This document shows, piece by piece, positions 20,938-31,616 of a stretch of 64,000 nucleotides of DNA. This DNA is from Gammaproteobacteria bacterium (GTDB lineage: Bacteria > Pseudomonadota > Gammaproteobacteria > Pseudomonadales > Azotimanducaceae). How positions within the stretch are numbered: position 1 is the stretch's first letter; each line of letters begins with the position of its first letter. Both the position numbers and the translations under genes were made by a program. The notes under the pieces were generated by a model. That model was not told the origin of the DNA. It made no database searches and saw only the letters and a list, made by a program, of their open reading frames with translations. The DNA lies in the NCBI GenBank assembly GCA_002690865.1, contig NZGG01000009.1, forward strand, positions 84,725-148,724. The letters run 5' to 3'.

Positions 20938-21879
20938 ATGAGCCGCGTTAAAATAAAAAGCTTGAGCAATTCAACGATATTACAACTAAGGTTCTTGCAT
21001 CCCCGTTTTTGGTTTACGTGGGTGGGACTTGCTTTGATATTTGTAATTATCCATTTTCCTCATCCTTGGAGACTCTGGTGTGGATCTATTCTAGGGAAAA
21101 TGGGGTATTACTTTGCTCTTGATCGAAAGAATATAGTCGATATTAATTTGTCTATTTGCTTCCCTGAGTTATCAGAAACAGATAGAAAAAAACTTAACAA
21201 AAAAGTCTTTCGATCCGCAGGTCTCAGTATTATAGAAACAGCATTAGTTTGGCTTCGCTCACCTATAACATTTCGAAATCTTGCCAAAATTGAGGGTCTT
21301 GAACACTTAGAAACTGCTCTCAAACAAGACAAAGGGGTTGTTCTAGTTGGGATGCACTTTTCTACGTTGGATTTTTGTGCAGCAATTCTCTCCAGCTATT
21401 GTAAATTCGATGTAATGTATCGCGGCAACAAGAATCCACTGATAGAAGCCATTATGAATCGTGGGCGGGTAAAAAATTTTTCGAATGCAATAGAACGGAA
21501 GGATGTTCGATCAGTAATCAAAAGTCTGAAGCAAGGTAGAGCAGTCTGGTATGGTCCAGATCAAGACTATGGTCGCGCTCACTCAGTATTTGTACCTTTT
21601 TTTGGTTATCCAACAGCAACAATTTCAGCCACATCACGCATTGCAGGGATAAACAAATCGCCGGTAATAATATTCACTCACTATCGTCTTCAAGGCGACT
21701 CTCGTTATCGAATATGCCTGAGTAAGCCTTTAGATAACTTCCCTTCCAAGGACCCTGTGCTTGATGCCTCTCGCATTAATGGGGAAGTCGAAAAAGCTAT
21801 TAAAAAAGCTCCAGAACAATATTGGTGGTTACATAGAAGATTCAAAACTCCTCCGAAGGGGAAAAATCGACCTTACTAA
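20938..21879 (+). CDS. LpxL/HtrB-family lipid A acyltransferase
   Basis: LVGMHFSTLDF (HX4D), GPDQDYGRAHSVFVPFFG. Confidence 0.88.
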   Translation: MSRVKIKSLSNSTILQLRFLHPRFWFTWVGLALIFVIIHFPHPWRLWCGSILGKMGYYFALDRKNIVDINLSICFPELSETDRKKLNKKVFRSAGLSIIETALVWLRSPITFRNLAKIEGLEHLETALKQDKGVVLVGMHFSTLDFCAAILSSYCKFDVMYRGNKNPLIEAIMNRGRVKNFSNAIERKDVRSVIKSLKQGRAVWYGPDQDYGRAHSVFVPFFGYPTATISATSRIAGINKSPVIIFTHYRLQGDSRYRICLSKPLDNFPSKDPVLDASRINGEVEKAIKKAPEQYWWLHRRFKTPPKGKNRPY

Positions 21880-22990
21880 AAGCTAGCATAGGCGGGAGCT
21901 GTTTTAGTTTCTTTGAAAAACTTTCAATAAAAAACTCTTGATCTAATCGTTCTCTTGCTGTGAAGCCAAGCTCTGATCTTTGATCAGAGGAGAGTCTATA
22001 TAATCTCTGCAGGTTCCTAGTTAGTTCTTCCTGACCCGAAAATCTAATACCAACATTGCAAAGGACGTCATCAAGGCCGGGGGCATCACTCGCAATGATA
22101 GGCAACCTAGCGAACATGGCTTCGAGAAGGACAACACCAAAAGCCTCCGCTTCACTAGATGGCATTACAAAACAATCAAAAGCTTTGTAATATTGCGCAG
22201 CTCGATCCAAATGACCAACAAAAAATACTTGATCTAGGATGCCGAGACTTTTGGCCAAATCAGTAAGAGACGATGCTTGAGGACCGTCCCCGAGAATAAC
22301 TAGAACGCAATTATCATCAAATTCGGCAGCTGCAAAGGCTATAAGTAATAAATCGAACCGTTTCTTTTCTATAAGTCGGCCTACTGCTCCAAATATGAAA
22401 TAATCAGAACTTATCCCAAACATTTCCCGAGCTGTTTCCCGGCTTAATAACTTGGCATCCTTACTTAAAGCATGACCCAGCACATGAATTCTTCTATCTC
22501 GAGCAATTGAGGGAATTGCCTGTGCTATATTATTTGCTACAGATCTTGAAACAGCGATCAGATGTATTCCCCTTCGCCAGAACTTAAGAAATGAGGCTCG
22601 AGTGAATCTATGGAAAACATTGTGTTCATGCACAACCCCAAGGATCAGCAATGACCGATAGAAAAAACTAATCACTCCTGCAAGATAAATTGGCTTGTAA
22701 CGATGTGCAATAACAATATCAAAGTTGGCCCTATAGAAAAAAACAAACAAACGACATAAAAGAGAGAATTTTACTCCCCGTAAAGACCTACTGGGACTAT
22801 GTAGGTAAATCACCTTATCGCCCCCAGTTCTTTCCGTTATAATATTACTGGCCTGTCCCTTTAAATAAATCGTAGTGACATCTGCATTAGAAAATGCATC
22901 ACAATATTGTCGGCAAATCAAAGGAAAGGGTCCCTTATAATCGTGACATAGCTGCAATATTTTTAATTTCCTCGACGCACTAACTGACAT
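21842..22990 (-). CDS. GT4-type glycosyltransferase, LPS core
   Basis: AVGRLIEKKRFDLLLIAF, EAEAFGVVLLEAMFARLPIIASDAPGLDDV. Confidence 0.85.
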   Translation of the reverse strand: MSVSASRKLKILQLCHDYKGPFPLICRQYCDAFSNADVTTIYLKGQASNIITERTGGDKVIYLHSPSRSLRGVKFSLLCRLFVFFYRANFDIVIAHRYKPIYLAGVISFFYRSLLILGVVHEHNVFHRFTRASFLKFWRRGIHLIAVSRSVANNIAQAIPSIARDRRIHVLGHALSKDAKLLSRETAREMFGISSDYFIFGAVGRLIEKKRFDLLLIAFAAAEFDDNCVLVILGDGPQASSLTDLAKSLGILDQVFFVGHLDRAAQYYKAFDCFVMPSSEAEAFGVVLLEAMFARLPIIASDAPGLDDVLCNVGIRFSGQEELTRNLQRLYRLSSDQRSELGFTARERLDQEFFIESFSKKLKQLPPMLAFSKVDFSPSEEF

Positions 22991-24725
22991 CGAAATTAGG
23001 CTTTGTTACGAGCAAATCTTCAAGAAATAAATATTCTAAATCTGAACCAAAAAACATATCTAGAGCATCAGAGGGAGAACAAACCATAGGCTCACCTCTC
23101 CGATTCATTGAAGTATTAAGTAGAGCTCCATTACCGGTAAGCTTCTCCATTTCCTTAAGCAAGTCGTAGTATCTAGGATTGAAGTCTTTTTTGACGATTT
23201 GCACACGCGAAGTACCATCCTCATGAACCACCTCTGGAATTCGGTCTGCCCAAGATTTAGCCACTTCAAATGTAATGGTCATAAAGGGTGCTGGGTGTTC
23301 TGTCTGAATAACTTCAGGGGCGACAGAATCGAGAATGCTAGGACAAAATGGACGCCATCGCTCGCGGAATTTAATCTGTTCATTTATCTTATCTGAAATG
23401 CCAGCACAGCCAGGGTTGCCAAGAATACTTCTCCCACCAAGAGCTCTTGGCCCGAACTCCATCCTACCCTGGCACCAAGCGATAGGATTCCCTTCACAAA
23501 GGAGCTTTGCTGCTGCCTTCGCCACATGTTTAATCCGTCGGTACATTGGTTTTTTCTTATGTAATTTACACGCCTGAATACACTCATCTGAGGTATAAGA
23601 GGGGCCAAGATATACGTGCTCCATTTTCTCTGGGTAAATCCCTCGTTTCCAGGTAGCATAAGAAGCAGCGCCTAATGCAGAACCAGCATCACTCGCCGCT
23701 GGCTGCACGAATAGCTCATCTACATAAGGCAACTGTAAAATCTTCTGGTTCAACTTCACGTTCAACGCACCTCCTCCCGCAAAAACAAGCTTTCCCGTTT
23801 CCTCAAGTATATCCTTAAGGTAGCAGTCAATTAGAGCAAGTGACACGTCTTCATAAAGTTTCTGTATCGCTGAGGCGTAATGAATATAGGGATCATCTGC
23901 CACATCGCCTTGCCGTCTTGGCCCCAACCAATCCACCAACTTTTGTGAAAAATAAAAACCTCTACCCCCCTCCTTGTAACGCCTAAGACCAACAGTATTC
24001 ACTAAACTAGTGTTAACCCTAATATCTTTACCGTCGAAAGCGAGCAATCTCGATAAATCATAACGATCGCTATCACCATATGGAGCCATGCCCATGACCT
24101 TATATTCCCCATCCAACATTTCAAAACCAAGGTATTCTGTAAAAGATGCATATAGCTGACCAAGAGAATCAGGGTCGAAAAATTCCTTAATTCGATGAAT
24201 GTCACCATTTTCTCCATACCCAAAGAAAGTCGTGGCATATTCTCCCTTCCCATCAATACCTAGAATTGCTGTCTTTTCCCGAAACCCACTGAGATGGTAG
24301 GCACTGCTAGCATGAGCAATATGATGCTCCACTGGATCAAAATCAATTTTATGCCAATCAATATCAAGATCATCCAACAAACTACGAACCCGCTTAACAT
24401 TACGACGGTAATGTCTATTACCATTTAGCAAAGCATCGAGGGACCGTTCAGGTGCATACCAATACCTTTTGGCAAAATGCCAACGTGCAGGCGATAACAA
24501 ACTTACTTTAGCAAAAGGGAATGCAACAACATCAATATCCCCAGGCTTAACTCCTCCAAAATCCATGCAAAATTTCGCTGCGTTGAGCGGCATCCTATCT
24601 TTGGCATGTTTATCACGAACAAAACGTTCCTCTTCAGCAGCAGCTATAAGCTTTCCATCAATATAAAGAGCCGCGGAAGGATCGTGCTTTAACGCGCCAG
24701 ATAAACCGAGTACAGTGAGTGTCAA
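22980..24725 (-). CDS. NodU/CmcH-type carbamoyltransferase, probable LPS core carbamoylation (TTG start)
   Basis: LGLSGALKHDPSAALYIDGKLIAAAEEERFVRDKHAKDRMP; VEHHIAHASSAYHLSGF; EFGPRALGGRSIL; LPS locus context as for P. aeruginosa wapO. Confidence 0.88.
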   Translation of the reverse strand: MTLTVLGLSGALKHDPSAALYIDGKLIAAAEEERFVRDKHAKDRMPLNAAKFCMDFGGVKPGDIDVVAFPFAKVSLLSPARWHFAKRYWYAPERSLDALLNGNRHYRRNVKRVRSLLDDLDIDWHKIDFDPVEHHIAHASSAYHLSGFREKTAILGIDGKGEYATTFFGYGENGDIHRIKEFFDPDSLGQLYASFTEYLGFEMLDGEYKVMGMAPYGDSDRYDLSRLLAFDGKDIRVNTSLVNTVGLRRYKEGGRGFYFSQKLVDWLGPRRQGDVADDPYIHYASAIQKLYEDVSLALIDCYLKDILEETGKLVFAGGGALNVKLNQKILQLPYVDELFVQPAASDAGSALGAASYATWKRGIYPEKMEHVYLGPSYTSDECIQACKLHKKKPMYRRIKHVAKAAAKLLCEGNPIAWCQGRMEFGPRALGGRSILGNPGCAGISDKINEQIKFRERWRPFCPSILDSVAPEVIQTEHPAPFMTITFEVAKSWADRIPEVVHEDGTSRVQIVKKDFNPRYYDLLKEMEKLTGNGALLNTSMNRRGEPMVCSPSDALDMFFGSDLEYLFLEDLLVTKPNFDVS

Positions 24726-24781: not shown

Positions 24782-26242
24782 TTAGTTTACTCTGACTTCA
24801 AATTCATTGATAAGATCAGATAGCAATCTACTAAGGCCTCGTTTGATAGCAGGTTGATCTCTCCAATTTTCCATAAAACGCTCCAAATCATGTCTGAAGG
24901 CATCACTAAAACCTTTTCTCGTCGTGAACTCGCGCATAGAATCCAAGTCAATAAGCAAAGGTTTATGTTGGGACAATAGGAAATTTGTAGCCTTGAGGTC
25001 TCCATGGCAAATTTGGGATTCTGATAATTTAGTGAAAATATCTTTTAGAGCAGTTATTTCAATGGAAGTACTGTCTGTCAGATGGGAAGCTCGAAGAAAT
25101 TCCCAAGCTGTAGGGCCTTCGATATACTCTGTAATCAAGTAAGCTTTTGAACCAAAAAACCCTAGCCTATTTTCGATCAACGCTAGCGCTTTAAGAGCAG
25201 GGATACCTAAAAACTCCAACCGAAATGCATTTTTCCAAGAAATCCTCGCTCTACTTACCCGCAATGCCAACTTTAATCCGTGGAAAAAACCCTTTACGTT
25301 ATAGCGCTTTATTACTACTGAGCGATCGCTCAGCTTTACTAGCGAGACCGTAGCAGTATTTCCGCTCTTCAATATAAATCCGGAGTCAACGAACCTATCT
25401 GGATCTTGAATTACTTGTCTCATTTCATGATTGAAATTTTTACGCTCACAAACCATGAAACGAGTGAACGTCGAACTAGATACGAATCTTGTGCAGTCAC
25501 GCACCGTTTTCCTTAGAAAAGAGCGCTTTCGAGTCTCTCTGGAACGTTGAATTTCAATCATTAGTTGATTCAACCTTCGCTTATCGTGCTGCCAGTTTCT
25601 GGCATTCTCATATTGAGTAAGTGCCGGCGGTACGAAATCATCAAGCTCTGCGGAAAATTGAGCAAAGAACAACGATAGATTCCTTAGGCTAAGACGCTCA
25701 GGAAGACTTTGCTGAGATTGCTTTCTTATACCTGCTCCATCAATAGTGTAACAAGCACCCTCACTCAGAAGAAAATTTTCTAAGTGAATATCTCTCTGTA
25801 CAACACCGTTATCATGAAGTTGTGCCATAACCTCCATTACCTTGCCAACTAATCGATCTCTTTCCACTTGAAATTTTTGTAACTCCATATCTAAGCTAAC
25901 GGCATCAGGTAAAAACTCAAATACTAGCAGCACACCTCCATCAGAAATCACGCCCTCCCAGAGCAATTTTGGAGTGGCAACGCCAGTATTTTGAATATGA
26001 GTTACACCCAGATGCTCTCGCGTAGAATTTCGTTTAGCATTTTTACCAAAAAATAATTTAACCAAAACAAGTCGGCCTTTATCATTTGCGAGTGCCACTA
26101 GTCTCTTTTTTGGTAAAAGGCGGAAAACTCGAAGAAATTGGATATCGATCCATGCCCCCCCTGACTTTTGTACACTCAGCAAGAACGGTGCCACAAGATT
26201 CCGATCTCGACTTACTAAGGACAGGCCGGTCATTCTTTCCAT
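24782..26242 (-). CDS. Two-domain LPS core kinase (InaA/WaaP-like repeats)
   Basis: Two kinase catalytic loops in one ORF: NGVVQRDIHLENFLL...YTIDGAGIR and SQICHGDLKATNFLL...LLIDLDSM. Confidence 0.8.
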   Translation of the reverse strand: MERMTGLSLVSRDRNLVAPFLLSVQKSGGAWIDIQFLRVFRLLPKKRLVALANDKGRLVLVKLFFGKNAKRNSTREHLGVTHIQNTGVATPKLLWEGVISDGGVLLVFEFLPDAVSLDMELQKFQVERDRLVGKVMEVMAQLHDNGVVQRDIHLENFLLSEGACYTIDGAGIRKQSQQSLPERLSLRNLSLFFAQFSAELDDFVPPALTQYENARNWQHDKRRLNQLMIEIQRSRETRKRSFLRKTVRDCTRFVSSSTFTRFMVCERKNFNHEMRQVIQDPDRFVDSGFILKSGNTATVSLVKLSDRSVVIKRYNVKGFFHGLKLALRVSRARISWKNAFRLEFLGIPALKALALIENRLGFFGSKAYLITEYIEGPTAWEFLRASHLTDSTSIEITALKDIFTKLSESQICHGDLKATNFLLSQHKPLLIDLDSMREFTTRKGFSDAFRHDLERFMENWRDQPAIKRGLSRLLSDLINEFEVRVN

Positions 26243-26284
26243 GCTGAGGGTAACTCCCTAACTCAAAAGTGTTAGCAATACGTA

Positions 26285-26458
26285 CTACATTCTTTTAGTA
26301 AGCAATCCTAAATTAAAATATAGCGAGACATATAAGCAGAAAAGGTCTTTCGACTCCTGCCTGTATCGGTCTTTAAGCATGCGTCGCTTAGATTTCATGA
26401 CTGGAATATGAATCGAGCAATTTTCATAAACATGAATAAGCAGCATACTACCGCGCAT
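26285..26458 (-). CDS. Candidate small ORF (57 aa), unknown
   Basis: Manual translation: MRGSMLLIHVYENCSIHIPVMKSKRRMLKDRYRQESKDLFCLYVSLYFNLGLLTKRM*; AGGGG 9 nt upstream; below the track's size cutoff; no family recognised. Confidence 0.25.
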   Translation of the reverse strand: MRGSMLLIHVYENCSIHIPVMKSKRRMLKDRYRQESKDLFCLYVSLYFNLGLLTKRM

Positions 26459-26460
26459 AA

Positions 26461-27276
26461 TCATTTACCCCTGGAATCCATTTTAATGACCCAATCCGGC
26501 AAGTACTCGTAATCTTGCAGGTAAAACCGACTAGCACGTTTATATACTTGTCGCCAGAATTCGGCATCCTCAACCAACGTTCTTCGCAAGCTTTTACCAC
26601 TATAAAAAACCATAAAACGGAATACATCACGGGAATTAATATTATAATTGAAGGAAGAGAAAAATAGGGCCCCAATATCCTTAACTCTCCATCTTAGAGG
26701 CGTGCGATTCCTTAACTGGGCACGGTGCAAATCTATAAGATAAAGCGAAGGGTCTAGACTATCGACTTCGTAAAGGAAGTGACAAAGGTAGAAATCACGG
26801 TGATTTATTCCATTCACGTGAAGTTTGCGCGCAATTTGCCCAAGCTTCCCAGCTAATGTGCGTTTTAAAGGGAAAGTAACCTGCCTTTCCTCAAATAATT
26901 CTTCTAAGCTTTTGGTGCCCTCTAGGGCTTTAGTAATGATACACGATCGTTTGTACGCAGGATTTAAACCCTCACTAACATAAACTACTGGCGTTAGTGA
27001 ATTTACGCCTAAACGATTTAATTCAGTCAATGCTTTAAATTCATTCTCAGCACCAACCACAGGCCATCGTAATTGACAGAGGTTTTTAAATATTTCCCGC
27101 CAGCCCACCCCTAAGTGACATTTTACGAAAAACCTTTGATCAGCCTTCTCAATTCTAGTTGTACGTCGATTTTCTAAAGAACGAAATACGACACCATCAA
27201 ACTGTTCAATCTGTTCAAAAAGATTTTTGTCATCAAATAAATCGATAAATTGCGGATCAATATATTTTTGTGCCAC
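26461..27276 (-). CDS. waaP: WaaP-like LPS core kinase
   Basis: NGINHRDFYLCHFLYEVDSLDPSLYLIDLHRAQ; next to waaG/waaC/waaF. Confidence 0.85.
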   Translation of the reverse strand: MAQKYIDPQFIDLFDDKNLFEQIEQFDGVVFRSLENRRTTRIEKADQRFFVKCHLGVGWREIFKNLCQLRWPVVGAENEFKALTELNRLGVNSLTPVVYVSEGLNPAYKRSCIITKALEGTKSLEELFEERQVTFPLKRTLAGKLGQIARKLHVNGINHRDFYLCHFLYEVDSLDPSLYLIDLHRAQLRNRTPLRWRVKDIGALFFSSFNYNINSRDVFRFMVFYSGKSLRRTLVEDAEFWRQVYKRASRFYLQDYEYLPDWVIKMDSRGK

Positions 27277-27283
27277 GCTTAAC

Positions 27284-29629
27284 TCACAGATCTTTATTTA
27301 TATGTACGACTGGAGATTGCTGTGCATAGTTGCAAATAAAATCTGCCGCTCTTTCAGGCATACTATAAATATCCGCATATTTAGCGAAAGATAGACCATT
27401 GTTCTTCATTTTAGTTAAGTCGTCTGAGACGATCATTGAAAAGAGTTGTGAAACGAATGTCTTCATATCAAAGGGCGAGGTCACTAGAGTTCCCGCTCCT
27501 GCTTCTTCGACGTAGCGTGCATACCCGCAGACATCAGAAGCAAGAACTGGTAAGCCAGCAACTATCGCTTCCAATAAGACAGTCCCTGTATTCTCCATAT
27601 ATGCAGGATGTACCAGCAAATCAGCACCTAGTAAAAAACGTGGGATATCGTCGCGTCCCTTAAGAATCTGTACGGACTCACTCAGACCTAAACGGTGCGC
27701 CATACGATAGAACTGATTTGGACCATCTTCCCCTATAGCAATGAGACGGGTACGAGAGAGAACATCATGTGGCAATGAAGACATCCCCAATAAGACTCTA
27801 TCTAATCCTTTTGTTATGAACCCTGAACCAACCAATAGTAGAAGAAAGTCATTCTCTCCTAAGCCAAACTCATGACGAAAGTCTTTACGGACAATATCAG
27901 CATCGGCTGGCGCTCTTCTATTTAACAAGATACCTGGAGGTAGCAGGTGGAATCGAGATTCTTGCGTTCCATAGTATTTTATAAAAAGTGGCTTTTGAAC
28001 CTCTGAAATCATAAGTATCTTAGTATCGAATGATTTGTCGAAAACAGCGCTTTCATACTTTGAGAAATGATGGTACCTAGGTAATTGTCTATCAAACCAA
28101 CCTCGCTGAGTGTACATTTTTTCCTGATAGCAATAGTCAGCCGCATAATAGATATCTAATCCGGGCATTTTGTTAAACCCTACAAGACAGTCTACTGGAT
28201 ATTTCTTTAGATGCGCCTGAATCCATCGAGAAAACTTTTGGTTTCGGCTGTGGTTCGTCAACGCGCTGACTGGTACGAGAATAATATCAAAGCCCTCAGG
28301 GATATAGCCGTCCCAAGATAGAGCATAAACTCTGATGCTATAACCACGAGACTGACATTCCATAGCAATACGGATGAAATCAAGTTGTAGTCCACCAAAA
28401 GTCATGTATTTATATAGGCAAAAGGCTAAAGTGCATCCGTTCTGTTTACATAAAGGCTTGTCTAGGACAACCTCTTCGATTTGAGAAGCTGCATCATTGT
28501 GCAAAGAGTAAATATTTGCTTTTTGCGCAAACTCACGACCTCTGGAAACAAATTCATCGCGCGCACTTAATAATAACATCTCTAATAGCTTTTCATTGAG
28601 CTCCCTCTGTGAGAAAGGATTTCCAACAAGATATCCAACATCTGCTTCTTCTATATAGTGCCCATAGCCACAGTTCTCTGTGGCTAGAACCGGCAGACCC
28701 GCTACTACAGCCTCGAGTAGAATAATACCGGCATTCTCATCAGTCGCTGGATGAAGTAAAAGATCTGCTGCAAACAGGAATTCGGGTATCTCATCAGGAT
28801 CACGTCCAAAAGAGAAAATTGTCACGTTTTTTTGTAGTCCCAAACGGAAAATTAATCGCTTAAACGGTCCTGGATTATCTCGACCGACAATAAAGTATTT
28901 AGTCCTCCTGCGGATCTCGCGCGGCAACGAACTTAAAGCATAAAGAGCTCGACTGACTCCCTTTTTTATGAACCCTGATCCTACAGTAAGCAGCATATAC
29001 TGATCATCTGCTACACCTAGTCGGACTCGCATCTTTTTTCTAATTTCATCTACATCAGGCGGAGCAATACGATTTTTAGCAATTCCAGGTGGCAAAAAAT
29101 GCATACGATCACTGGGGGTCTCATAATATTTTTTAAAAAAAGCTGTCTGCGCATCGGAGATCATAAGAATTTTGGTAGGACTATCATTCCCAAAAACTGA
29201 TCGCTCATAATGAGCAAAATGATGATACCTTGGTAATTGACGGTCGAACCAGCTGCGCTGAGTCTGCATTTTCTCCTCATAACAGGAGTCTCCACAGAAG
29301 TAGACGTCTAGATCAGGCATCTTATTTATTCCAATAACACCATCGACAGGCGCTTTCCGCAGTGCGCTCTTTACCCATGAGCTAAAGCGTTCATTTCTGG
29401 TATGGTTTGTAAAGGCAGTTACCGGCACAATTACGATCTCGAATCCTTCCGGTACTTCACCCATCCAATCTAAGGTATAAACACGCACAGTATGGCCTCG
29501 TTGCTGACAAGCCATAGCAATATTTAGAAAATCAAGCTGAAGACCCCCATAGGGAAAATACTTATATAGGCAAAAAGCAAGCTTTAAGCTTGGGACTTGA
29601 TGTCGATTTGTTTTTGGAGTGTTTTCCAA
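27284..29629 (-). CDS. waaG: Fused tandem WaaG-like glycosyltransferases (two full copies in one ORF)
   Basis: LAFCLYKYFPYGGLQLDFLNIAMACQQRGH... (copy 1) and LAFCLYKYMTFGGLQLDFIRIAMECQSRGY... (copy 2); EX7E motifs ENAGIILLE and ENTGTVLLE. Confidence 0.88.
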   Translation of the reverse strand: MENTPKTNRHQVPSLKLAFCLYKYFPYGGLQLDFLNIAMACQQRGHTVRVYTLDWMGEVPEGFEIVIVPVTAFTNHTRNERFSSWVKSALRKAPVDGVIGINKMPDLDVYFCGDSCYEEKMQTQRSWFDRQLPRYHHFAHYERSVFGNDSPTKILMISDAQTAFFKKYYETPSDRMHFLPPGIAKNRIAPPDVDEIRKKMRVRLGVADDQYMLLTVGSGFIKKGVSRALYALSSLPREIRRRTKYFIVGRDNPGPFKRLIFRLGLQKNVTIFSFGRDPDEIPEFLFAADLLLHPATDENAGIILLEAVVAGLPVLATENCGYGHYIEEADVGYLVGNPFSQRELNEKLLEMLLLSARDEFVSRGREFAQKANIYSLHNDAASQIEEVVLDKPLCKQNGCTLAFCLYKYMTFGGLQLDFIRIAMECQSRGYSIRVYALSWDGYIPEGFDIILVPVSALTNHSRNQKFSRWIQAHLKKYPVDCLVGFNKMPGLDIYYAADYCYQEKMYTQRGWFDRQLPRYHHFSKYESAVFDKSFDTKILMISEVQKPLFIKYYGTQESRFHLLPPGILLNRRAPADADIVRKDFRHEFGLGENDFLLLLVGSGFITKGLDRVLLGMSSLPHDVLSRTRLIAIGEDGPNQFYRMAHRLGLSESVQILKGRDDIPRFLLGADLLVHPAYMENTGTVLLEAIVAGLPVLASDVCGYARYVEEAGAGTLVTSPFDMKTFVSQLFSMIVSDDLTKMKNNGLSFAKYADIYSMPERAADFICNYAQQSPVVHINKDL

Positions 29630-30651
29630 GTCTCTTCTGGTGTAATCGCAAAGCAGGGAGGGTAGAGTTTACAATCGTCATTAGAGAACTTACAGTCCCT
29701 CTTCAGACATGGAATGCATGGTAAGTTGCTACTCGCTAAAGTTAGCTGGTACTTTCCCGAAATACCGGTAAGGTTCGGATCAGTTGGCCCAAACAATGCC
29801 ACAGTAGGTACACCTAACGCTTGTGCTAAATGCCCCAGGCCGGTATCGACCGTTATTATACCGGCGCAACCTGCTATCCGTTTTGCGAGCGCATTTAAAG
29901 ATAATCTAGGTAGCAAGTCTGCGCCTTTGCTTGCAATTCGACATGCCCGCTCAAAATCAGAGTCATTTCCCGAAGGAATAAGCACCTGAAAACCGTCGTT
30001 TTCTGCAAGTTGCGATAATCTTATCCAGTTTTCTTCTGGCAAAAACTTAGAAGCCCAAGTCGTTCCATGCAACAGCATAATCGATTTAGTGCTTACTTGG
30101 TCGGAGCAGAAGAGGCCAAAATCCGCTCCTGATGAAAAACGATAATGCAGAAGCTTCGCTCCGAGTGTTCGTAACCGATCAATAGCGTGAATTCCCTTGT
30201 TCACATTAATCCTTCGCTGATACAAAAAGCTAGATACAAATTCACGACTGGAATAGAAACCAAACCCGCCAGTGGGTCCTTTTGCTATCGATGCTACTAA
30301 AGCACTTTTAACTAGCCCCTGAGCGTCAATTATCAAATCATATCTTTCTGAACGCAAAAGCCTCAGAAATTCCCATAACTCCCTCCATGTATGAGCATAA
30401 AACCATGTTCTTCGCCATCGACGAAATGCTACTTTAATAATTTTTGAAATGCCTTTGTGTATGGTGGGAATATCCGAGAACTCATCCTCTACAACCCAAT
30501 GGATAAGTGCCCCCTCATGATATCTTTGGATATCAGTAACGAGGGGAAGCGTATGAACCACATCACCCAGGGAGGATAATTTCACAATAAGAATTTTCAT
30601 TAACGCTCTAGTTGTAACAGAACATCCTCTGGCTCGATTAAATTCAAACAA
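29584..30651 (-). CDS. waaC: LPS heptosyltransferase I
   Basis: MKILIVKLSSLGDVVHTLPLVTDIQRY; GIITVDTGLGHLAQALGVPTVALFGPTDP; internal ATG of MKILIV likely the true start. Confidence 0.92.
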   Translation of the reverse strand: MFEFNRARGCSVTTRALMKILIVKLSSLGDVVHTLPLVTDIQRYHEGALIHWVVEDEFSDIPTIHKGISKIIKVAFRRWRRTWFYAHTWRELWEFLRLLRSERYDLIIDAQGLVKSALVASIAKGPTGGFGFYSSREFVSSFLYQRRINVNKGIHAIDRLRTLGAKLLHYRFSSGADFGLFCSDQVSTKSIMLLHGTTWASKFLPEENWIRLSQLAENDGFQVLIPSGNDSDFERACRIASKGADLLPRLSLNALAKRIAGCAGIITVDTGLGHLAQALGVPTVALFGPTDPNLTGISGKYQLTLASSNLPCIPCLKRDCKFSNDDCKLYPPCFAITPEETWKTLQKQIDIKSQA

Positions 30652-31616
30652 TTTTTGTGTTCAAGTGGGCAATTTCTCTTGAAGCAGGGACTACATTGGA
30701 TTGATTTTCTGATTACTATAGGATTAGTCGTTAAAGGAGGCGTAAATGTAGGCGAAGTAGACCCATATACAACAACGATTTTACAACCCACTGCAGAGGC
30801 AACATGCATTAATCCTGAATCGTTACTAATAACCTGACCACAGAGATTAATTAGGTCAACGACATCAAGTAGGGTTGTACGACCAGCCAGATTCGCACAA
30901 TCTTTTTCATAACTAGACGGTAAAATTTTACAAATTTTGTTGGTTAAAACACGATCTCTCGCTGACCCAAACAACCATACTTGCATACCACTCTCAATCA
31001 CTTCCTTAGCTACTCCGGCAAATTTTTCTTCTGGCCACCGCTTAGCATCACCAAACTCTGCGCCCGGGCAAATGCCGAGGATAGGCTTTGATGCATCAAG
31101 ATTAAATCGTCTCAAACAGTCATCCTGATTAATTCGATCGATAGCGAGAGACGGCTCACGATACTGGGGTAGCGGTTTACTAGAGCCCAAGCCAAGCGCC
31201 ATGAATCTATCAATCATTCTAGGCAACTTAGCCCGATCGAGTATCCGCATATCATTCAGTAACTTATACCGCATCTCGCCTCTATATCCTGTCCGCAAGG
31301 GTATATCTGCAAAAAATGGAACAAGCGCCGATTTGAAGGAATTGGGTAAAACTATAGCCTGATCATATCCTGTTTTCTGGAGCGCTCGCGCAAATAAGCG
31401 CCGATAACCTAAATTCATCTCCCCATGACCAACATCAAATAACAAAGGGCGATCAACATTAGTCATCCTAGATAACAGGGGTTTAGAAGCACTAGGTGCC
31501 ATTACATCGATTCGCACGCCTGGATCATTCTCTTTCAGCAAAGAATATAAGGTCTGAGACATAATTATATCACCGACCCAAGATGGGCTAACGACAAGTA
31601 TTCGTTGTTCAGTCAT
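30600..31616 (-). CDS. waaF: LPS heptosyltransferase II
   Basis: RILVVSPSWVGDIIMSQTLYSLLK; GICPGAEFGDAKRWPEEKFA; VISNDSGLMHVASAVG. Confidence 0.95.
   Translation of the reverse strand: MTEQRILVVSPSWVGDIIMSQTLYSLLKENDPGVRIDVMAPSASKPLLSRMTNVDRPLLFDVGHGEMNLGYRRLFARALQKTGYDQAIVLPNSFKSALVPFFADIPLRTGYRGEMRYKLLNDMRILDRAKLPRMIDRFMALGLGSSKPLPQYREPSLAIDRINQDDCLRRFNLDASKPILGICPGAEFGDAKRWPEEKFAGVAKEVIESGMQVWLFGSARDRVLTNKICKILPSSYEKDCANLAGRTTLLDVVDLINLCGQVISNDSGLMHVASAVGCKIVVVYGSTSPTFTPPLTTNPIVIRKSIQCSPCFKRNCPLEHKNCLNLIEPEDVLLQLER

Follow-up and report, generated by a model that had tools for sequence, protein, structure and literature searches.

Enzymes of the LPS core are normally described as one gene for one sugar. 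WaaG of Pseudomonas aeruginosa (PA5010; structures 8b5q, 8b5s, 8b62 and 8b63), a single-domain GT4 enzyme of about 373 aa with a GT-B fold, whose gene sits between waaC and waaP, hydrolyses UDP-GalNAc and not UDP-glucose, and a mutant changed together at positions 97, 208, 282, 283 and 285, including T208R and T283A, was switched from the hydrolysis of UDP-GalNAc to that of UDP-glucose (PMC10579960). The WaaG orthologue of P. syringae has been assigned as a GalN transferase (PMC8005017). WaaG (RfaG) of Escherichia coli (2iv7, 2iw1) is likewise a single-domain GT4 enzyme with an EX7E motif, one segment of which binds the membrane (PMC7558818).

Polypeptides with several glycosyltransferase modules have also been described, among them WbdA of E. 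coli O9a and Klebsiella O3/O5, which carries one module per linkage type (PMC11231755). WbdA, however, is an O-antigen mannosyl polymerase that uses GDP-mannose, and is neither a core enzyme nor a recent duplicate of a core glycosyltransferase. Within the core, LgtF of Campylobacter jejuni is a two-domain glucosyltransferase of the GT2 family. Truncation of LgtF results in loss of the glucose on heptose II (PMC7248181); the enzyme resembles the product proposed below in being one polypeptide for two core sugars, but belongs to another glycosyltransferase family and is unrelated to WaaG. Multi-module glycosyltransferases and a two-domain core glucosyltransferase are already known, and what appears new here is a clade-wide, ancient WaaG tandem with divergence in the donor pocket. 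Our search of open-access PMC text returned no WaaG-WaaP fusion and no tandem or fused WaaG, the latter absence being no proof that such a protein is unreported.

The present study examined a reading frame that joins two full WaaG domains in the window, by which we mean the whole analysed stretch of 64,000 nucleotides of DNA from a marine bacterium. Our main reading, to which we assign a probability of roughly 60%, is that duplication and fusion in place yielded two intact enzymes that add two different core sugars.

Materials and methods

Genomes were surveyed in samples of 59 relatives, 201 members of the window's family, 293 members of its order, and 370 members of its class, which overlap one another. 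Residue numbers follow P. aeruginosa WaaG unless protein numbering is indicated. The 365 columns of the domain alignment were ranked by how well they separate N-terminal from C-terminal halves over 46 fusions. A careful tree was inferred for 52 domains, and a wider quick tree was also built.

Results

A single frame with two WaaG domains

The waaG-waaG fusion gene (27284..29629, minus strand) runs from a TTG start through 781 codons without interruption. Its N-terminal WaaG domain (copy 1; 28475..29587, minus strand, approximately residues 15-385), identified by phmmer matches to 8b5s and 2iv7 and by a residue table, is followed by a linker of about 14 aa (28433..28474, minus strand, residues 386-399) and by the C-terminal WaaG domain (copy 2; 27326..28432, minus strand, approximately residues 400-768). 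The best solved relative in phmmer was P. aeruginosa WaaG for both copy 1 (E 3e-121) and copy 2 (E 4e-147, to 8b5s), and Pfam PF00534 matched the protein twice. Residues 17-397 match residues 401-778 along the whole of WaaG, with 52% identity (E 2e-149), so the likeness between the halves is far beyond chance. In a joint alignment, copy 2 was 60% identical to P. aeruginosa WaaG, and copy 1 was 51% identical to it and 47% identical to the E. coli enzyme. The sequence-only reading had described two full tandem WaaG-type GT4 enzymes in a single ORF, about half identical to one another and with copy 2 the nearer to canonical WaaG, and the open frame and these alignments agree with it on all three points.

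The product combines the GT4/GT-B and EX7E features of WaaG with a WaaG as its closest solved relative over the full length and with the waaC-waaP position; since it has 781 aa and two domains, unlike single-domain WaaG (~370-400 aa), it is best described as a protein with two WaaG domains. It is the sole WaaG found in a search of the genome, in which the one other match was weak and was a different GT4. The AlphaFold model of the protein was weak (pLDDT 65, pTM 0.38) and is silent on the arrangement of the halves; it depicts, at low confidence, what may be two GT-B-like halves, and its PDB matches merely restate the homology to WaaG.

The TTG start lies in the last codons of waaC (heptosyltransferase I; 29584..30651, minus strand; TIGR02193, 298 bits, over the cut-off), the 3' end of which is overlapped by 46 nt, and waaP (heptose I kinase; 26461..27276, minus strand; NF011703, 285 bits, over the cut-off) begins 7 nt past the stop; with waaF (heptosyltransferase II; 30600..31616, minus strand; TIGR02195, 441 bits, over the cut-off), these genes therefore form a tight waaF-waaC-waaGG-waaP string. 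Further along the same strand are genes for a two-domain kinase that is PA5006-like in its position (24782..26242, minus strand; WaaY and Kdo kinase Pfam matches, synteny), a wapO-like carbamoyltransferase (22980..24725, minus strand; Carbam_trans_N and Carbam_trans_C, 67% identity to its positional counterpart in L149) and a wapH-like GT4 glycosyltransferase assigned by synteny (21842..22990, minus strand). The order waaF-waaC-waaG-waaP-double kinase-wapO-wapH is common to the window and L149 (G316), which comes from a genus-level group whose WaaG (L051) adjoins P. aeruginosa WaaG in trees; L150, from the same genus as L149, agrees with the window as far as the carbamoyltransferase, and the published order of PA5012-PA5004 agrees with it as well (PMC8005017). 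The interval 26242-26461 of the window is free of wapP/wapQ-type kinases, and in L149 and L150 about 1.5 kb lies between waaP and the double kinase, space enough for two further kinases, which in the published table are wapP and wapQ (PMC8005017). The protein has two GT4 domains, but it is encoded in a waaF-waaC-waaP core locus and not, as a WbdA-type polymerase would be, in an O-antigen (ABC transporter) locus.

Divergence of the donor pocket

At the five positions shown to govern donor choice in P. aeruginosa WaaG, the C-half of the window protein has Y97, T208, N282, T283 and T285 (Y495, T606, N680, T681 and T683 in protein numbering), which is the Pseudomonas-type pocket at five of five positions. 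The N-half has F97, K208, N282, A283 and I285 (F111, K222, N299, A300 and I302), sharing only N282 with the Pseudomonas type and three of five residues (F97, A283 and I285) with the E. coli type (F97, R208, A282, A283, I285), from which it differs by K at 208, where both are basic, and N at 282. The earlier description of WaaG as an inner-core glucosyltransferase does not suit copy 2, whose five pocket residues are those of an enzyme that hydrolyses UDP-GalNAc and not UDP-glucose; copy 1 is the more E. coli-like of the two.

Across the fusions, column 208 was the best separator, with Lys in 46/46 N-halves and Thr in 46/46 C-halves; column 280 ranked second (Asp in all N-halves) and column 283 fifth (Ala in N-halves vs Thr or Gly in C-halves). 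The five published donor positions as a set outranked random columns (p 0.006) and conserved columns (p 0.0007), a signal carried first by 208 and 283 and then by 282 and 285, with nothing contributed by 97. Subfunctionalisation, as previously suggested for this gene, is supported by this concentration of the divergence in the donor pocket together with the catalytic residues kept in both halves.

Redundant copies would not be expected to hold K208 against T208 in 46 pairs and A283 against T/G283 family-wide, nor was there a sign of general gene conversion between the halves, and we consequently think it unlikely that both halves perform the same transfer, whether to raise the dosage or to bring one kind of donor sugar to two heptose acceptors, even though the two pockets are not fully separate: N282 occurs in some N-halves and N-type singles, and L017, L091 and L092 have N/T/T at 282, 283 and 285.

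Catalytic residues and selection

Gly15, Asp100, Arg173, Lys209, Glu281 and Glu289 are invariant in all 92 halves of the 46 main-type fusions. The EX7E motif that had been read in both copies comprises E298/E306 in the N-half and E679/E687 in the C-half of the window protein, both glutamates being invariant in each half across the fusions, and Lys209 corresponds to K223 and K607 (protein numbering). For both halves, dN/dS was ~0.05-0.18 in most close unsaturated pairs, the few higher values falling mostly where dS was ~0.1 or less, and synonymous change far exceeded amino-acid change. The low dN/dS in both halves argues that each is selected for function.

Both the invariance of every catalytic residue in the main-type fusions and the similar purifying selection on the two halves stand against a single working half, with the other serving as a regulatory, membrane-anchoring or acceptor-binding pseudo-enzyme. 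Such an arrangement is suggested by the second WaaG domain of L139:1166-3325 (+) and L142:3404-5629 (-) (genera g59 and g7), from which the EX7E glutamates E281 and E289 and Lys209 are gone, so that this domain is a putative pseudo-enzyme half and the C-half would not always be active in g7 and g59; it also draws on the membrane-binding segment of E. coli WaaG (PMC7558818), which is kept in both halves, and on the replacement of Arg18, a ribose contact in P. aeruginosa WaaG, by Leu in both window halves (L32 and L416). For the main-type fusions we judge it distinctly improbable and retain the reading of two working enzymes.

Five genomes of the window's genus carry the R18L change in their N-half and their C-half alike, with differing codons, and most of the five also have a WFDRQLPRYHHF-like membrane-contact segment in each half. 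Gene conversion between the halves was considered as an explanation for this sharing of R18L and rejected, since the codons differ and identity between N- and C-halves within a genome was no higher than between genomes over most alignment windows; within the window's genus, the halves resemble each other somewhat more closely in a short stretch at approximately residues 107-137.

Distribution and origin of the fusion

Among the surveyed genomes, two colinear full WaaG domains per frame were found in the window's own family only, with complete main-type two-domain frames in 46 genomes of 15 genera. Their linkers measure 7-16 aa (median 13), and the fused gene sits in the waaC-waaP slot wherever the flanks were readable. 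Outside the family, in the order and class samples, WaaG is a single-domain protein of ~380-400 aa, which in some cases is followed by WaaP in the same frame. The fusion is thus the common, and apparently the ancestral, form of WaaG in the family. A fusion unique to the window's genome is rejected by the presence of the same frame in its relatives; the sequence-only reading had itself allowed that a fusion common in the clade would not be novel, and the survey of relatives found it to be common. An assembly artefact or collapsed repeat can be dismissed with near certainty, because 46 assemblies, independent of one another and drawn from 15 genera, show the same open frame at the junction, and identity between the halves is only 52%. 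In-frame stops in some matches (G002, G008, G025 and G023) were examined as evidence of two genes and discarded, as none falls at the junction.

In the careful tree, N-halves, C-halves and family singles formed one clade (support 97/95), within which the N-halves and the family's N-type singles formed another (99/97); the C-halves were not recovered as a clade, and a clade was not rejected either (AU p 0.42). The quick tree also placed the N-halves together, and drew the C-halves nearer to Pseudomonas WaaG at weak support. Distance matrices of N- and C-halves mirrored one another (r = 0.93; 0/2000 permutations as high), and both halves have co-evolved after duplication. These results are most simply read as a single duplication and fusion that preceded the radiation of the family, after which several lineages lost one half, and the trees in this way support the duplication-fusion that had been inferred beforehand. 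An N-type WaaG alone is kept by many genera of the family, and in G029 a C-type copy is fused to WaaP (L140). Separate copies of both types are also kept, since genus g29 (G081, G115; L156-L159) has an N-type waaG within the core cluster, and its T-type waaG-waaP pair lies elsewhere; two short contigs from the same genus (L161, L162; G099, G034) encode a further WaaG-like protein with ~31% identity to the C-half. A recombinant origin was considered for the N-type singles with a C-like 282-285 motif (L091, L092) and set aside, as sliding identity gave no clear breakpoint.

Discussion

Proposed function

Under the main reading, waaG would have been tandemly duplicated in place and both copies merged into one reading frame in the ancestor of the family, giving two separate, catalytically intact GT-B enzymes held by a short linker at the same inner-core acceptor on the membrane. 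By analogy with Pseudomonas, the C-half is predicted to keep the reaction of that genus, the alpha-1,3 transfer to heptose II of GalNAc, later GalN, from UDP-GalNAc. The N-half would be the derived copy, in which K208, A283 and I285 should exclude the N-acetyl group and accept a UDP-hexose, Lys208 disfavouring UDP-GalNAc and Ala283 relaxing the block on glucose. Judged by its pocket residues, its donor is probably a UDP-hexose without an N-acetyl group, most likely UDP-glucose, an assignment made uncertain by K208, which is neither the Arg of E. coli nor the Thr of Pseudomonas, and by the Pseudomonas-like N282. The genome encodes galE and galU, which fits both donors and is specific to neither. 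One polypeptide would in this manner add two different core sugars at a fixed 1:1 stoichiometry; we infer the donors, the acceptors, the order in which the sugars are added and whatever advantage coupling may bring. The lone N-type copy of some family members suggests that the N-half does not need a C-half to act on the inner core, and because many members have the N-type only, some lineages may do without the second sugar, or the N-half may itself perform the first transfer.

A further version, which we hold to be rather doubtful, is a two-step core-assembly enzyme, with adjacent sites that would add GalNAc and then hexose, or the reverse, to the same acceptor without release.

Other fusions of core genes

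In-frame fusions of WaaG to WaaP, of 650-717 aa, occur outside the window's family in at least three families of Gammaproteobacteria, f188, f179 and f151 (L143, G812; L144, G614; L145, G719; L146, G586; L147, G786), and inside it in two members (L140, G029; L141, G133), and altogether WaaG-WaaP fusions are found in f151, f179, f188 and parts of f1, at least four families. They resemble the double WaaG in the in-frame joining of neighbouring core genes starting from waaG, and differ in that the second domain is a heptose kinase. WaaG, a degraded second WaaG and WaaP share one frame in L138:1978-4764 (-) and L137:944-3667 (+) (929 and 908 aa; G012 and G121), and in L142:1309-3432 (-) (G066) one frame of 708 aa encodes both WaaP and the double kinase. 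Fusion of core enzymes is frequent in the waa gene string.

Significance

In the double WaaG, nature has duplicated a drug-target enzyme of solved structure and kept both active sites; the divergence is sharpest in the donor pocket, at residues whose mutation has already been shown to change the donor that is used, and the 46 natural pairs are a test set for sugar selection by WaaG. The repeated joining of adjacent core genes (WaaG-WaaG, WaaG-WaaP and WaaP-double kinase) is a pattern that deserves its own study, and the double WaaG raises the question of a physical coupling between glycosylation and phosphorylation of the core. If the two-step enzyme proves true, the WaaG-WaaG, WaaG-WaaP and kinase-kinase fusions would be the mark of core-assembly enzymes that form a physical complex at the inner membrane. 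Annotation of this gene as a single-domain WaaG could miss one core sugar transfer across a whole bacterial family.
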